In this document: one piece after another, positions 2,188 to 15,476 of the stretch
Position numbering within the stretch: the first letter of the stretch is position 1
Layout of the letters: the number at the start of each line of letters is the position of its first letter
Assembly: GCA_028286725.1 (NCBI GenBank)
Contig: JAQBQZ010000008.1
Span: 1-44,749 of the forward strand
Direction: 5' to 3'
From: Candidatus Tayloriibacteriota bacterium
Lineage (GTDB): Bacteria; Patescibacteriota; Minisyncoccia; Phycocordibacterales; CAIRYW01
DNA length: 44,749 bases
Position numbers and translations under genes: made by a program
Notes under the pieces: model-generated
Seen by the model: the letters and a program-made list of their open reading frames with translations, nothing else
Databases searched by the model: none
Told to the model about the DNA's origin: nothing

Positions 2188-3279
2188 TTAAAGCTGGAGA
2201 GTAAGCTTGGCGCAGTCGCGATTGCCGCGCTGAGGATTTGGAGCGTGGTTAACGGCCACCCAGGTCATTGGTTTGATCACGGGGCAAAACCCACGTAAGT
2301 AAAGTTTGTGAATGTCGCCGTCAACAATGGAGTTAAAGTGCACATGCACCATTTCCCCATTCATCAACCGAACAAAACCTCCACCATACATCACATTAAA
2401 CCAGAAGACTTGGGCGAGTTCGAAACCCCACTTTGCCATGTGAGCAGGCAATGCGGGCGGTTGGGTTTTATCCCATTCGGCCACAATGCACTGACTGAGT
2501 GGAGCGGAGTAATCCCGAGCAAGGGCGTAAGGCATCAGTGATTCACCGATTTTCTCACGTGCTTTGAGCCAGTTGAAGCCAGGGTAGGCATCTTCCGACT
2601 TAGCAGGCACAATGATGGCATATTTGCCTCCAGCACCAGTGCGATACGCATTGCTCTTGAGACCATGTTGCTCAATCTTCTCACGAGTCGTCCGCACGAT
2701 TTGTGCAGTGGACACTTCCTGAATAGTTACAAACAGAAACTTGCCCCCACGGACCACAACACCGACCTCGAGCTCAATGAAGAGCCCGTCCTCCCGGAGA
2801 AAAACCAGGATGATCTCGTCGTCGTTGTCGTCACGCTTCGACGCTTGGGGCTTGCACACTTCAGCATACTCGATTCGACCACCAGCGCCCGCCTTCCAAT
2901 TCATCGGAACAACAAACTGAGGAATGCTGCTTTTGCTCACATCCATCATTCGATTGTTTTTGAAGTAAAGGAGATGGGTCTTGGCGGCGAGTTTGAAACT
3001 GATATTGGTCTTGATGTGATGCTGAAGACGATTAACTTTCTCCGTCTCCATGTTCAAGGGTGCGATCGTGAATCCGTCCTTGCTTTGAACCTCACCAAGA
3101 TCAGCGAGGATATTGAGCTGCAGCTTACCGAAGAGCTCGTGCTCCCAGGTAATCTCACTCCCTTTTCCCTTCCATTGCCGCGTTTGTGGCGGAGGAAGTT
3201 GCGGGGTGGTTGAGCCTTCGCTGGCCGATGCGGCCCTGAGTGCCAGTTCGAGTTGGAATAATCCTGGGTCTGAGTTCAT
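2188..3279 (-). CDS. Hypothetical protein, compositionally GC-rich relative to its surroundings
   Basis: Long 363 aa ORF ending beside a terminator; overlapping plus-strand ORFs look like shadows. Confidence 0.6.
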   Translation of the reverse strand: MNSDPGLFQLELALRAASASEGSTTPQLPPPQTRQWKGKGSEITWEHELFGKLQLNILADLGEVQSKDGFTIAPLNMETEKVNRLQHHIKTNISFKLAAKTHLLYFKNNRMMDVSKSSIPQFVVPMNWKAGAGGRIEYAEVCKPQASKRDDNDDEIILVFLREDGLFIELEVGVVVRGGKFLFVTIQEVSTAQIVRTTREKIEQHGLKSNAYRTGAGGKYAIIVPAKSEDAYPGFNWLKAREKIGESLMPYALARDYSAPLSQCIVAEWDKTQPPALPAHMAKWGFELAQVFWFNVMYGGGFVRLMNGEMVHVHFNSIVDGDIHKLYLRGFCPVIKPMTWVAVNHAPNPQRGNRDCAKLTLQL

Positions 3280-3513: not shown

Positions 3514-4557
3514 TTAGAACTTTGCTTTAAGTCCTTCTACTATGAGATCAGCCACTTTTGAGTGTGGAATCATAGTTGGAGGAACATCTTTGGTAGTAAG
3601 AGATCCGTTGAATGCAGAATCTTTTGTATGAAAAAGATACCAAGGGATTCCATCGATCATCCCCTCTCCTCCTAATATTGATTTATCCTCTATTTTGATT
3701 TCACCCCATTTGTAAAACTGTTCTGCCATTCGAAGTAACATAATTGAATTTGTAAGATCAAGACCTCTTTTTTGATAAGTAAAGATGGAAACGTTTCCTC
3801 GACTACTAAATTGGATTATGAGCTGTGCTCTTTGCGAACGAAACGCTTTACTTACCTCTTCATTATCAGAAGTCACAACTGCCATATCTATAGGTTGTCC
3901 GTCATTACCAACAAATCTTTCTTTGAGTGCCCCTTTGAATTCTTTGAGTGCCAATTGATATTGATCGTTCTGATATTTTCTTGCTTCTTCAATTGCACCA
4001 CTCCAAAATTCCAAATCCTCACTTTGCAATTCTTCAAGAATTTTCTTTGTATCTACTACTGTAAAAGGTCGGATCTCTCCCCTTTCGAGAAAGAATTTTA
4101 TATGAGCCATATAAGCAATCTCTGCCCATCTATATATTTTTTCATAGTCATCCTTAAAACATGAATGCAAAAATTTCATTCCAATAGAAAGCATATCTTT
4201 GTCTTTTGCAACGGCGAGATCTTCTTCTTTGATAATATTCAAAATTCCTTGCAGTTCTGGTTTGTTATCTATTCCCAAATATTTGGCAACTAATGTTGCG
4301 CACACTTCCCCACTTTCTCTTTCTTTATCTACTGTCGCATGCTCATCGAATGGTCCGCCGCCCACTCCGAGAAATATAGTATCCGGGAAATCCAAATATG
4401 TTTTATTTTCTGGAAGTTTCCCTGCTCCAAGAAATTGAACTTCAGCAGTAGATACACCCGGGAACTTCTCTTCCCCTTCTCCGAATTTTTTAAGTAACAT
4501 CAAAGCCACAAGTTCATCTGCATGTGGTCGATTGTGAGTTATTATTTTAGTTATCAC
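3514..4557 (-). CDS. MYG1/DHH-like putative phosphoesterase (tentative)
   Basis: N-terminal ITHNRPHADELVALMLLKKFG and FLGVGGGPFDEHA resemble MYG1-type THN..HCDE and DHH-type motifs; GTG start. Confidence 0.4.
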   Translation of the reverse strand: MITKIITHNRPHADELVALMLLKKFGEGEEKFPGVSTAEVQFLGAGKLPENKTYLDFPDTIFLGVGGGPFDEHATVDKERESGEVCATLVAKYLGIDNKPELQGILNIIKEEDLAVAKDKDMLSIGMKFLHSCFKDDYEKIYRWAEIAYMAHIKFFLERGEIRPFTVVDTKKILEELQSEDLEFWSGAIEEARKYQNDQYQLALKEFKGALKERFVGNDGQPIDMAVVTSDNEEVSKAFRSQRAQLIIQFSSRGNVSIFTYQKRGLDLTNSIMLLRMAEQFYKWGEIKIEDKSILGGEGMIDGIPWYLFHTKDSAFNGSLTTKDVPPTMIPHSKVADLIVEGLKAKF

Positions 4558-4642
4558 AAAATTTTAGAATTTAGTTTTGACTGAATCCCTCCGGGCCACA
4601 GATGTGCCCCGCACATCTGGTCTGTTTTTGAAAATATTAATC

Positions 4643-4757
4643 TTTTGTCACATACTTACGGTTTTTCGGGACGCCGGGATTTGAACCCGGACTGAATGCT
4701 CCCAAAGCATTTATGCTACCGTTACACTACGTCCCGTTAAGTAAGTATGTGACAAAA
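4643..4757. repeat. 17-bp perfect inverted repeat flanking tRNA-Pro
   Basis: ttttgtcacatacttac (4643-4659) / gtaagtatgtgacaaaa (4741-4757). Confidence 0.95.
4666..4736 (-). tRNA. tRNA-Pro(TGG)
   Basis: 7-bp acceptor CGGGACG/CGTCCCG, T-arm GGGTTCAAATCCC, anticodon loop TTTGGGA; CCA not encoded. Confidence 0.93.
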
Positions 4758-7385: not shown

Positions 7386-7510
7386 GAGTAGGGAGAATCT
7401 CTCCTTACAGGAGCAGTATCCTGTTTGGATAATTTGTTTCGATTCCTCACAAATTATGCTCAAACAGGCTTCGATTCTCCCACGAAAGCGCCCCAGGCTT
7501 TCTTACTCGC
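7386..7510 (-). ncRNA. tRNA-linked structured element A (3' of tRNA-Gly)
   Basis: Gapless paralog of element B with compensatory stem changes; contains the reverse complement of the tRNA-Gly 3' end. Confidence 0.6.
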
Positions 7511-7567
7511 ACAAATATACAAAAAGACACAGAGAAATCTGTGTCTTTTTGTATATTTGTGCGAGTA
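7504..7567. repeat. 29-bp perfect inverted repeat that includes the tRNA-Gly acceptor 3' strand
   Basis: tactcgcacaaatatacaaaaagacacag / agaaat / ctgtgtctttttgtatatttgtgcgagta. Confidence 0.97.
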
Positions 7568-7630
7568 GGGAGAATCGAACTCCCGTCTCATCCTTGGCAA
7601 GGACGTGTTCTACCACTAAACCATACCCGC
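7560..7630 (-). tRNA. tRNA-Gly(GCC)
   Basis: GCGGGTA...TACTCGC acceptor, anticodon loop TTGCCAA, T-arm GGGAGTTCGATTCTCCC. Confidence 0.95.
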
Positions 7631-7709
7631 TTTATTGGAAATAGTATATCGGAAAATGGGGGAATGGCAATGGGGGAAAGGGGATTAAGGCAAAAACGTG
7701 GTCACGAAT

Positions 7710-7836
7710 CTATAGAGGGATATTCGATCCTTACAGGATCAGTATCCCGATTGGAGATTTTGTTTCGCTACCTCACAAAATCTGCTCAATCGAGCTTCGA
7801 ATCCCTCACGCGAGCGCCCCACGCTTGCTTGGGTGC
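7710..7836 (-). ncRNA. tRNA-linked structured element B (3' of tRNA-Arg)
   Basis: Gapless paralog of element A with compensatory stem changes; contains the reverse complement of the tRNA-Arg 3' end. Confidence 0.6.
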
Positions 7837-7896
7837 ACAAGAATACAAAAAATCTCAGAATATTATTCTGAGATTTTTTGTATTCTTGTGCACCCA
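7830..7896. repeat. 31-33 bp inverted repeat that includes the tRNA-Arg acceptor 3' strand
   Basis: tgggtgcacaagaatacaaaaaatctcagaata / tattctgagattttttgtattcttgtgcaccca. Confidence 0.97.
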
Positions 7897-7960
7897 GAGG
7901 GATTCGAACCCCCAACAACCGCTTCGAAGGCGGGTATGATATCCATTTCACTATGGGTGC
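7889..7960 (-). tRNA. tRNA-Arg(TCG)
   Basis: GCACCCA...TGGGTGC acceptor, anticodon loop CTTCGAA, T-arm GGGGGTTCGAATCCCTC. Confidence 0.93.
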
Positions 7961-11672: not shown

Positions 11673-12596
11673 TTAATTCCCACCCTTTGAATGAAACTTT
11701 TTATGTATTTCCTTCAAATGTGAATCTGTTATGTGTGTGTATATCTGAGTTGTTGCGATATTTGCGTGTCCCAAAAGCATCTGAACTGATCGGAGATCTG
11801 CACCGTTTCGAAGTAAGTCTGTTGCGAAGCAGTGCCGAATCACGTGAGGTGTAACCTTTTTTGATACTCCAGCTTTGATCGCATAATACTTAACAAGTCT
11901 TTGTATTGAACGACTTGTAAGCGCACCATCTTCCTTTTTACTTCTTTCTTTGCCAACTTTGACGAAAAGGGCATCATCCATATCTTTACGAAGACTTAAA
12001 TAGGTCTTAAGTATTGTTTTGGCATCATCTGATATGAATACCACACGCACCTTGCTTCCTTTTCCGCGGATCGAGAGCTCGTCTTGATGGAGATCAATAT
12101 CTCGATTCAAGGCACAAAGCTCAGAAACTCGAAGTCCCGTAGAAAAGAGAAGCTCCAAAATAGCCTTACCGCGAGCCTTTTTTTCTGGATCTTTCTCATC
12201 GTTTGGTGCGTCCATGATTCTCTGAAGTTCTTGTGGAGTAATGAGATCAAGAGACCTTTCACCGGTCTTGGCAAGCTCTATATAGTCTGCGGGAAGGGTA
12301 ACAATGCCTCTTTTAGCTATGAATTTGAGAAATGTCCGGAGGGCAATAAGATAATAGTTTTGGGTTTTCTTCTTCAGAGTCTCATTTGTTCTTCTATTAT
12401 TACCTGTTACTTGCCGATTAAGCCAAAGACGGTATTCTCGCATTATTTCAGGAGTAATATCCTTTGGGTCAGTTTTTTTTAAAAATTCCAAGAAACGAGT
12501 GAGATAGTGATCGTAATTCTCAACTGTTTTGAGACTGCGACCCTTTTCTATCTCGATATGTTCGAGAAATTGTCTTTTGAGAGTTAGAAGGTCCAT
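11673..12596 (-). CDS. xerD: Tyrosine recombinase XerC/XerD family
   Basis: STGLRVSEL, GKGSKVRVV, HVIRHCFATDLL, LGHANIATTQIYTHI. Confidence 0.93.
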   Translation of the reverse strand: MDLLTLKRQFLEHIEIEKGRSLKTVENYDHYLTRFLEFLKKTDPKDITPEIMREYRLWLNRQVTGNNRRTNETLKKKTQNYYLIALRTFLKFIAKRGIVTLPADYIELAKTGERSLDLITPQELQRIMDAPNDEKDPEKKARGKAILELLFSTGLRVSELCALNRDIDLHQDELSIRGKGSKVRVVFISDDAKTILKTYLSLRKDMDDALFVKVGKERSKKEDGALTSRSIQRLVKYYAIKAGVSKKVTPHVIRHCFATDLLRNGADLRSVQMLLGHANIATTQIYTHITDSHLKEIHKKFHSKGGN

Positions 12597-12677
12597 GAAT
12601 TATAGTATAACAAAATATAATAATATTGTGCGACATTTAAAATTGGTTGCAAATTAAATTAGTTGTATAATATTGAA

Positions 12678-15476
12678 ATGAATAATAAAGAATGGTTTCC
12701 ACCAGTAGAGGATATAAAACAAAAGAAAGGAATGGATTCTTTTAGTGAAGCCCTCGCAACAATTGAGGCTTTTAAAAATGAACACATGCCAATTCCAATT
12801 GATTTTATTCACGAGCTTGAAAGAGCGGTTCTAAAGCCTGGTGAAAATGACTTCGCAAAGGGTGATTACCAAATTCAAAGACAGACTATTAGAGATTTGC
12901 TTTCTGATAGCGAGATAATGATTGTTGATGGGATTCACAGGATCGACAACGCAGGACTTTTAGCAGATTATGAACGAATGGTTGATGTTGAAAGTATTGA
13001 TATAGACGAACTCATCAAGGAGATCAAATCTCACAATGGAGACGCCCCATCAGAACTAATTACCCAGGCAACTAAATATTTGAACCTACAATCTACACGC
13101 CAGATCAGTTCACAAATTCTTGACGCTCAGAGAGCAGAGCTTGAATATCACGCATTCGGTATAACAAAATCTGGAGAGAAAAAACAAAAAAAAGGACCTG
13201 TACCTAATAATCAAGCAGGGAATCCTGTTCCTACCGGCAAACCAAAACGAGAACGTAAAAAAAAGGATCCGTCTCCAGCACCAGCAACAAACCCGCAACC
13301 TGCTCCAGAAGCAAATAATAACGAAGCTGAGTCACAAAACAAAATCAGTGAACAAGAATTGAACGCAAAGGAAACGCGAATCGAAAGTCTTGCCCGTTCA
13401 TCAAAAAAGCAAATCCCATACGCACTCGTAAACGAATTGTGGACTATATATAATGGCACGAACGAAGATCCTGATATGCAAGCGAGTATTGAAAGACGAA
13501 AGAACAAATTCGTGGAAATCATTAGTAAAAGAGATGTGAAAATAATTCAAGAAAATAAAAGGGAAATAACTTGGAGTGATTTTCTAGCGCAACACACACC
13601 GGAAGGACAAGAGGCGAAAACACTTATTCAATCACTTAAAGAGGCAATTGATAATGAGAGACTAGTACCTCAAGCTCTTATTGAGGAATTGTACGAAACT
13701 TTAGGCTCTGGAAACACGGCTTTAGTATCAGAACTTTTGAAGGGACAGATATTGTTAGACTTTCAAAAAGCCGCGAGAAGAAAAGGTGTGTCAGTAGTTT
13801 TAACAAGGGATGCAACAATAGATAAAGTGGGTGCGGAAATTTTCATGTCACCAAGTGCAACACTTATATTAGGTAAAAATCTCAGTACAGAAAATGTGTT
13901 AGCAGACCACATGCCAGACGGAAGAGGAAATTTGATACCAAAACCTGAAATACCAACATTTGGCGGAGAAATACCAAAAGATCTTATTTCAGATGGTAAT
14001 GGAAATTTAGTGCCAAGAGAACCTATGCCTGAGTTTGCAAGTTTAGGAGATGATGCTCAATTTGTAGCTGTTGAAACAGTAGGTGAAGGACGAAATCAGG
14101 GGCAAGTTGTAAGAAAGTATGAAAAAGAGGTTCCAACTGAATTTGGAAACATAGGAGAGGGAATAAAATTTGTAACAAACGAAGTGACTGGTAAAAATGG
14201 TGAAACTATTATAAGAGAAGATGTGTCAATGCGAGAAATAGATCCAGAAGCGTTTCGAGCTCAACTCGGTGATCTTCTTGAGCATATTAATGATCATATT
14301 GTCCAAGAACAATTGGACAGAATAGTTGAGGAATTTGATGAACTTTCAGAAGCCGACAAAGAGAAGTTCAAAGAATTATACGAAGGACTTGCGCCCGTAC
14401 ATCACACCGAAGGGCACGGACACAATGATCACCATGGACATGACGGGCACGGTGGACACGATGAACAAGGAGGGCATGCTGAGAAGACTCCAGAACAACT
14501 TGGAAATATAGTTGATGAATTTCTCAAAAAACTTCAATCAGACGAGGAGTTTGATATGGACCGCGCAACTCAAGATTCTTTGATCGGCAAGTTTATTAGA
14601 CTGAAAGTTGAAATGCAAAAGGTTGCGATGGGTAAATTAGATGAAGAAAAACTCCTTAAAGATGACAAAAAAAATATCCACATCTTTAAAGGTCTTTCGC
14701 AACAGAAAAAAGTTGCAGAAGAGGAACATTCAAAAGAAATTGAAAAAATAGAATCTGGATTGGAAGCTTCAAGAGGTGACGAGAGTGTCAATGATAGTTA
14801 TCGTATTGGATTACTTCGAAGTAAATTTACTGAGATATTGAAGCACAACATACGTATGAGAGTGGTATTCGCCGAAGAAATTAGAGAATTAAAAAGAATA
14901 CTTGAAGAAAAAGAAAGAGAACTTGAGGATAAAAGACAAGTTCTTGAGGAGGCAAGAACAAACATGAGAGATGCGGCCAGAAACAGAGATGAGGGTGCGA
15001 TCAGATCAACAACAGAAGCATATCAGGCAGCCTTAAAAGATTTTACCAAAATGGAAGTTGTTGTTGAGGGTATCAAACTCAAACTCAAAAGCAAGGTAGA
15101 TAGTTTGAAAAAAATATCTGATAAAATAACTGAAATTGAAGAGGGGAGTGCCGATATGAATAATTGTGAAGATCTAGAAGAAGCGATACGAATCTCTGAA
15201 GCAGCAGAAACGGTGTCGAAGGAAATAAAAAACGAATTAAAACCAGGGCAAGAACATGACGAGCACGAACATGATGAACATGGACACGAAGGAGGACCAT
15301 CTAGAAGATCTAAGATGATAACATGGGGGCTTGTGGGAGGAGGATTGTTGATTGGAATGTTCAATATATTTGCAACAAATCTATACAATACACTCCGAGG
15401 AGTGAAAGCTAGTGGAGGTGGGGGCTCTAAAAGTGGAGGTGCGCACGGAGGGGGAGGAGGACACGGAGGACATTAA
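12678..15476 (+). CDS. Large coiled, His-rich protein with C-terminal TM and Gly/His tail; hypothetical
   Basis: HHTEGHGHNDHHGHDGHGGHDEQGGH, HDEHEHDEHGHEGG, TM MITWGLVGGGLLIGMFNIFA; start reset to ATG 12678. Confidence 0.8.
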   Translation: MNNKEWFPPVEDIKQKKGMDSFSEALATIEAFKNEHMPIPIDFIHELERAVLKPGENDFAKGDYQIQRQTIRDLLSDSEIMIVDGIHRIDNAGLLADYERMVDVESIDIDELIKEIKSHNGDAPSELITQATKYLNLQSTRQISSQILDAQRAELEYHAFGITKSGEKKQKKGPVPNNQAGNPVPTGKPKRERKKKDPSPAPATNPQPAPEANNNEAESQNKISEQELNAKETRIESLARSSKKQIPYALVNELWTIYNGTNEDPDMQASIERRKNKFVEIISKRDVKIIQENKREITWSDFLAQHTPEGQEAKTLIQSLKEAIDNERLVPQALIEELYETLGSGNTALVSELLKGQILLDFQKAARRKGVSVVLTRDATIDKVGAEIFMSPSATLILGKNLSTENVLADHMPDGRGNLIPKPEIPTFGGEIPKDLISDGNGNLVPREPMPEFASLGDDAQFVAVETVGEGRNQGQVVRKYEKEVPTEFGNIGEGIKFVTNEVTGKNGETIIREDVSMREIDPEAFRAQLGDLLEHINDHIVQEQLDRIVEEFDELSEADKEKFKELYEGLAPVHHTEGHGHNDHHGHDGHGGHDEQGGHAEKTPEQLGNIVDEFLKKLQSDEEFDMDRATQDSLIGKFIRLKVEMQKVAMGKLDEEKLLKDDKKNIHIFKGLSQQKKVAEEEHSKEIEKIESGLEASRGDESVNDSYRIGLLRSKFTEILKHNIRMRVVFAEEIRELKRILEEKERELEDKRQVLEEARTNMRDAARNRDEGAIRSTTEAYQAALKDFTKMEVVVEGIKLKLKSKVDSLKKISDKITEIEEGSADMNNCEDLEEAIRISEAAETVSKEIKNELKPGQEHDEHEHDEHGHEGGPSRRSKMITWGLVGGGLLIGMFNIFATNLYNTLRGVKASGGGGSKSGGAHGGGGGHGGH

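Follow-up and report, generated by a model that had tools for sequence, protein, structure and literature searches.

Several described systems resemble, each in part, the elements reported here. REP/BIME sequences are small, gene-less palindromes that occur many times per genome and are served by a RAYT (Y1) enzyme in trans. MITEs are short non-coding units with a target duplication (a perfect direct copy was observed at 28 of 74 loci of the present family). Integron attC sites and cassettes conserve the fold over the sequence, form tandem arrays, and would present a double-stranded site on the folded strand. The region between the T-loop and the 3´ end is used by tRNA-site phages and ICEs, which restore the tRNA, and T-box and other tRNA-binding regulatory RNAs contain a sequence fitted to one tRNA. 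Casposons insert at tRNA 3´ ends with a duplication of 14–15 bp, in which only the 3´ tip of the tRNA is included (PMC6977970), and CRISPR arrays gain units at one end.

The elements in the window, which is the whole 44,749-nt stretch analysed here (contig 8 of a 0.9 Mb genome), differ from each of these systems. REPs have no fixed association with tRNA 3´ ends and lack target-matched arms, and Y1_Tnp (PF01797) gave no match in the own genome. Unlike MITEs, the elements have no terminal inverted repeats of their own, their left end is variable, and the 'duplication' corresponds to a set portion of the tRNA (~19 nt). In contrast to attC, the stem matches the host tRNA in sequence; there is no cassette gene and no integron integrase past a Xer-type protein. 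The R´´/R´ boxes of attC read RYYYAAC/GTTRRRY, and an informal look at the element-end consensus showed no GTTRRRY. Compared with casposons and CRISPR arrays, Cas1 (PF01867) is absent from the own genome (rated 100% complete; Pfam search), the duplication differs in length and position (~19 nt, C56–C74), and the core is a conserved family rather than a set of arbitrary spacers. Phages and ICEs differ in that the present elements carry no integrase gene and no cargo, and one family occupies nearly every isotype with refitted arms. Unlike T-box RNAs, the elements sit 3´ of the tRNA gene itself, complement the T-arm and the acceptor, and lack a wobble-tolerant pairing signature. To our knowledge, no mobile element or RNA has been described with target-complementary arms that are refitted to each host tRNA. 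We call these refitted target arms the novelty; in a milder view, the element is an odd miniature transposon.

With moderate confidence, we interpret the family as non-autonomous, gene-less, folding mobile DNA elements of ~150–190 bp that are located at tRNA 3´ ends, are lineage-specific, and have their arms refitted to the host tRNA. If confirmed, they would represent a new kind of minimal selfish DNA, carried by roughly half of the genomes sampled from a large order of ultra-small bacteria, and would show a parasite that lives on essential tRNA genes without breaking them. They would also provide hundreds of natural cases in which selection for RNA pairing can be separated from DNA-level palindrome correction.

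The two elements of the window, A (plus 7405–7510) and B (plus 7731–7836), are 106 nt each and align without a gap, at the coordinates given in a preliminary description of this DNA. Both are located downstream, in the minus-strand sense, of their own tRNA, and the same series was observed behind both genes: a perfect hairpin rich in A/T comes first, then a stretch complementary to the acceptor 3´ strand (arm 1), the hairpin hp1, a stretch complementary to the T-stem 3´ strand and T-loop (arm 2), the core, and finally D´, which repeats the tRNA 3´ end in direct orientation. The core comprises two stacked stems, P1 and P2, followed by a P3 hairpin with a TGTAA loop. All features described below lie on the minus strand. 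The host of A is tRNA-Gly(gcc) at 7559–7630 (ARAGORN; Rfam tRNA, 68.8 bits), in which segment D (7561–7579) runs from the T-loop through the 3´ strands of the T-stem and the acceptor. A perfect A/T-rich trailer hairpin (7510–7561) runs on from the tRNA end into the acceptor complement, as had been described, and its predicted fold is one long stem. Arm 1 (7504–7510) is the reverse complement of the acceptor 3´ strand at 7/7 positions, and arm 2 (7470–7481) is that of the T-loop and the T-stem 3´ strand at 12/12. The 22-nt hp1 (7482–7503) is inserted between the arms at the acceptor/T-stem boundary, where most loci have a similar hairpin. The core of A (7401–7469) forms P1 (7461–7468/7420–7427), P2 (7449–7457/7429–7437) and P3 (7401–7413, TGTAA loop); it is matched by R1, our covariance model of the element core, at 7390–7483 (E=1.5e-22), and its stems are supported by covariation. 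D´ of tRNA-Gly, GATTCTCCCTACTC, lies at 7386–7399 and resembles a target duplication; the 28 loci with a perfect copy are arranged alike.

Element B follows the same plan behind tRNA-Arg(tcg) at 7888–7960 (ARAGORN; Rfam tRNA, 63.2 bits), with D at 7890–7908. Its trailer hairpin (7837–7889) is A/T-rich and perfect according to the sequence and the predicted fold, arm 1 (7830–7836) and arm 2 (7796–7807) match the acceptor and T-arm complements at 7/7 and 12/12 positions, and a 22-nt hp1 (7808–7829) separates them. The inverted tRNA copies that had been noted in both elements are therefore exact, each with its 22-nt insert. The core of B (7726–7795) contains P1 (7787–7794/7746–7753), P2 (7775–7783/7755–7763) and P3 (7726–7740), with an R1 match at 7716–7809 (E=5.6e-23). 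The stems of A and B differ by compensatory changes as originally reported, except that the outer stem of B (cccgattg/caatcgag) contains one C-A mismatch. D´ of tRNA-Arg, CGAATATCCCTC, is partly decayed (7714–7726). Further downstream, a stretch at 7697–7710, GATTCGTGACCACG, is like the 3´ end of a second scaffold type and is a probable remnant of an older, displaced element. The direct copy, clear at 7386–7399 and decayed at ~7714–7726, was overlooked in the preliminary description and is the main sign of insertion. Behind a third tRNA of the window, tRNA-Pro(tgg) at 4666–4736, a hairpin similar to hp1, CAGATGTGCGGGGCACATCTG, is accompanied at 4582–4619 (minus strand) by a degraded stretch that resembles an arm; this piece is probably a decayed element.

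The core defines a family that is confined to one lineage. R1 found 20 matches in the own genome at E<0.1, and of the 197 genomes searched in the order, 108 had matches. The 287 genomes drawn across the phylum, searched with strict filters, yielded seven with matches, all of the same order, and none from other orders. Among 84,980 species genomes, a pattern scan picked out 93 stretches, and the named records were almost all Paceibacterota/Parcubacteria (Taylor-, Kaiser- and Zambryskibacteria); the few stretches elsewhere are probably due to chance. Eighty loci fetched from public contigs contained 120 R1 matches. The search recovered many homologues 3´ of different tRNAs with matching arms, which is what the preliminary description had proposed to check, and the arms are tailored to the neighbouring tRNA at nearly all isotypes. 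Covariation in the core is pronounced: double changes occur at 15 of 22 pairs among 19 sequences (73 cells vs 18.7 in shuffled alignments) and at all 22 pairs among 119 distinct rows (591 cells vs 138.7). At the gathering score, Rfam 15 matched only tRNA, one tmRNA and one unrelated group I intron in the window and 22 further loci and left the element unmatched, in agreement with the preliminary description, which did not recognise a known family in it. Matches at a relaxed threshold were mostly miRNA-like hairpins, which we read as chance. A literature search for tRNA-linked repeats in these bacteria, in which subscription journals were poorly covered, found none.

The arms can also be detected independently of the model by scoring the best downstream match to the 12-nt reverse complement of the T-arm of each tRNA. 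A complement of 10–12/12 to the own T-arm lies just 3´, on the same strand, at 20 of 35 tRNA genes examined in the own genome. By our reading of the sequences, eight of these tRNAs lead into the type-1 core (the kind of A and B) and 12 into other scaffolds, of which at least four types occupy the same position. For the 32 tRNAs with full flanks, the scores are bimodal, with 18 at 11–12/12 and the rest at ≤10. Upstream of the same tRNAs the scores peak at 7/12 and reach at most 9/12, and 53 tRNAs from other orders of the phylum also do not exceed 9/12. The bimodal distribution against these controls indicates that the arm matches are not due to chance.

Placement behind tRNA-like genes is consistent across the loci. 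An upstream tRNA on the same strand within 700 nt was identified for 94 of the 120 model matches, mostly 24–80 nt from the core and for nearly all isotypes; several of the matches without a called upstream tRNA are contig starts. At L142, an element (2327–2404) lies 3´ of a tmRNA gene (2472–2878, minus strand) at a distance of 68 nt, with a T-arm complement of 12/12. At L103 (2092–2517, minus strand), a tRNA-Asn split by a 319-nt intron is followed by an element with matching arms. The part from the T-arm to the 3´ end is common to tRNA and tmRNA, both of which are occupied, suggesting that this part is decisive for placement. A group I intron (Rfam RF00028, 54.4 bits) was also observed at L123 (5372–5608, minus strand), near a tRNA-Met that bears an element.

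Perfect D´, defined as an exact copy over 12 nt of the T-stem and the acceptor, was present at 28 of 74 loci, and the downstream copy is decayed at about half. The cleanest copies span about 19 nt, C56–C74. Perfect copies most commonly start at −1, +2 or +6 of the T-loop and end at N73–C74, and among these 28 loci the left end of the element varies and no conserved terminal repeats were observed. At four loci, D´ goes on as C75–A76 and completes the encoded CCA, and the upstream tRNA copy ends after C74; on sequence grounds, an entry of the element between C74 and C75 would give this picture. Cores also appear to have dispersed among tRNAs. On one contig, elements behind tRNA-Gly and tRNA-Pro lie ~1.2 kb apart with cores that are 98% identical, and their hp1 and arms are unrelated, the arms of each fitting its own tRNA. 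Tandem units occur with a step of ~120–190 nt; at L162, two such units have a common left part and different cores, an arrangement that a simple staggered-cut model leaves unexplained. One tRNA cluster bears different element types, or none, in related genomes, which represents turnover. No genome pair with filled and empty states of the same locus was found at the strain level. From the duplications, dispersal and turnover, we infer that the elements would be mobile, which favours the 'mobile palindromic element' among the options originally listed.

The arms follow the tRNA rather than the direct copy. T-arm fit is 10.9/12 to the own tRNA, compared with 9.3 to tRNAs of other genomes with the same anticodon and a different T-arm and 8.25 to other isotypes; for the acceptor arm, the values are 5.8/7 vs 4.6. 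At 129 positions where the tRNA and D´ differ, the arm equals the tRNA at 127, D´ at none, and neither at two. The change rate is three times lower in the arms than in D´ (0.065 vs 0.196). The fit of the arm to the acceptor is poorer at loci with a perfect D´ (5.3 vs 6.2 of 7; Spearman −0.37, p=0.0013), where a perfect D´ serves as a proxy for presumed young age that gene conversion can confuse and the loci are phylogenetically non-independent. T-stem fit shows a similar, non-significant trend with the state of D´. The poorer fit at loci with a perfect duplication suggests that the arm match improves after insertion. The earlier proposal that the arms 'co-evolve' with the tRNA is refined accordingly: the arms match the own tRNA, and this match would improve after insertion. 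Two simple schemes were set aside: that the arms are copied at insertion, given the poorer arms at perfect-duplication loci, and that the element pairs with its own copy, given that the arms follow the tRNA wherever D´ differs.

The arms were probably fitted after insertion and kept fitted at the DNA level. Under the mobile-element reading, the insertion site would be the 3´ end of a tRNA-like gene, whether tRNA, intron-containing tRNA or tmRNA. The core would be inserted, and the tRNA 3´ end duplicated, by an event resembling a staggered cut or by copying from the tRNA; this duplication would leave the host tRNA intact. Newcomers would enter beside the tRNA and push older copies downstream. 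Both arms would later become, and then remain, exact complements of the host tRNA, and the displaced D´ would decay meanwhile; the core would thus travel between tRNAs, and the arms would be made or refitted locally. The process at the DNA level may be palindrome correction by template switching during replication, a published route to making and mending such stems at quasi-palindromes (PMC8794818). The other option for arm correction is a folded single strand that acts as a recombination substrate for a recombinase. Upkeep of the arms after the decay of D´ could also reflect selection for a function.

The most serious alternative, which we nevertheless regard as unlikely, is a cis-acting RNA: the element, as the 3´ trailer of the tRNA transcript, would pair alternately with the tRNA 3´ half, which blocks maturation, or with its own downstream copy, which allows it. 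The core stems covary, the arms remain matched to the tRNA though D´ decays, and the element lies on the same strand as the tRNA in 94 cases. In addition, the predicted minimum free energy of the tRNA plus element is 16–19 kcal/mol lower when the arms capture the tRNA 3´ half. On the other side, the arm is predicted in silico to destroy the fold of the tRNA, and strong covariation by itself need not imply a structured RNA. RNA pairing would favour G-U-compatible changes, and none were preferred: wobble-compatible and -incompatible transitions number 21:18 in the arms vs 37:31 in the unconstrained D´ (Fisher p=1), and therefore the attenuator reading is not supported. Most core pairs behave similarly. 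Among the best 80 matches, the G-T:A-C ratio is 16:9 in core stems and, for comparison, 51:7 in the stems of the tRNAs at these loci (p=0.016), although the core test is modest because the ratio becomes 51:12 when a single position with recurrent G-T and a single frayed terminal pair, both left out of the first figure, are included. Moreover, the alternative state depends on D´, which has decayed at about half of the loci; 15 of the 35 tRNAs examined in the own genome have no such arm; and at least four other scaffold types take the same position. At many loci, the tRNA and the element are separated by an A/T-rich hairpin whose 3´ arm is T-rich and which may end transcription, although a terminator scan found no site. 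The structured-RNA and attenuator options of the preliminary description are thus weakened.

A more speculative, rather doubtful form of the mobile-element reading is a nucleic-acid-guided element, in which the folded arm would choose the target by pairing with the T-arm of a tRNA gene, and would be rewritten to the new host on insertion. In young copies with a badly fitting T-stem, inspected by eye, the inner portion of the arm, for the T-loop, still fits in nearly every case, which is how a seed would behave.

Classical tRNA-targeted integration appears improbable. Here, tRNA-specific lineages would carry their own copy of one tRNA 3´ end as an attachment site, and a Xer-like tyrosine recombinase would integrate them into that tRNA only, perhaps as folded single strands like integron cassettes. 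The stretch from the T-loop to the tRNA end is the usual att region, and it is what the direct repeat spans; the arms and the copy would also rebuild a double-stranded T-arm in the folded strand. Tyrosine recombinases were detected in 58 of the 60 genomes searched among relatives. The single tyrosine recombinase of the own genome (window 11673–12596, minus strand) is located 4 kb from tRNA-Gly and tRNA-Arg, matches XerC/D and exceeds the cut-off of the XerA/integron-integrase model; it is probably the housekeeping Xer, and in several relatives it shares a contig with a tRNA-Gly. Against this explanation, near-identical cores occur at different tRNAs with wholly different arms, loci with a perfect repeat have worse arms rather than better, and the single recombinase is present also in relatives without core matches. 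Three long open frames of the window, at 12663–15476 (plus), 3514–4557 (minus) and 2188–3279 (minus), had no NCBIfam match; one encodes 937 aa.

Integration by Cas1 or a casposase-like enzyme, with the tRNA end as the repeat of a CRISPR-like array, is highly improbable. The elements recall casposons and CRISPR arrays (PMC6977970) in their duplication of the tRNA 3´ end and in arrays that grow beside the tRNA, but the own genome lacks Cas1, the elements have no conserved terminal repeats, and the Methanosarcina mazei casposon has a different, 14-bp duplication, just the final 4 bp of which lie within the tRNA (PMC6977970). That no mobile element is involved, and that repeated template switching or tandem duplication of tRNA 3´ ends yields look-alike palindromes, is barely credible as a whole: template switching is known to create and repair perfect hairpins (PMC8794818), but a ~65-nt conserved core found order-wide cannot derive from the tRNA itself, so that the model matches refute this reading for the core, although the arms may have arisen in this way.

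As a gene-less mobile DNA, the element would have to rely on a host or helper enzyme. The own genome had no match to reverse transcriptase (PF00078), which speaks against a group II intron or retro-element. Y1_Tnp was detected in 39 of the 60 genomes of relatives, in many cases with the size of a RAYT (~220–250 aa), and its presence follows that of the core only weakly; it is a possible candidate for the mobilising enzyme in these relatives. Neither a pattern search of viral contigs nor blastn against phage and plasmid records gave a match, and no vehicle was found.

The type-1 core is accompanied by a wider set of related sequences. BLAST of the region against the own genome identified more copies by the Tyr, Ser, His, Asn and Asp tRNAs and similar arm arrangements at the Met, Leu and Gly-TCC tRNAs. 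The second scaffold (GGCGGAG..GAGCCGG..GTGACC) exhibits compensatory changes as well. A core variant with a 5´ extension, GGTGAGNTCGGGATNGGGACCCGANCGCAAGACC, and without tRNA arms is seemingly inserted inside type-2 scaffolds, as elements nested in elements. This variant was observed in the spacer between tRNA-Cys and tRNA-Leu(taa) at L101, and similar pieces lie behind the Tyr, Leu-tag and Thr-tgt tRNAs of the own genome.
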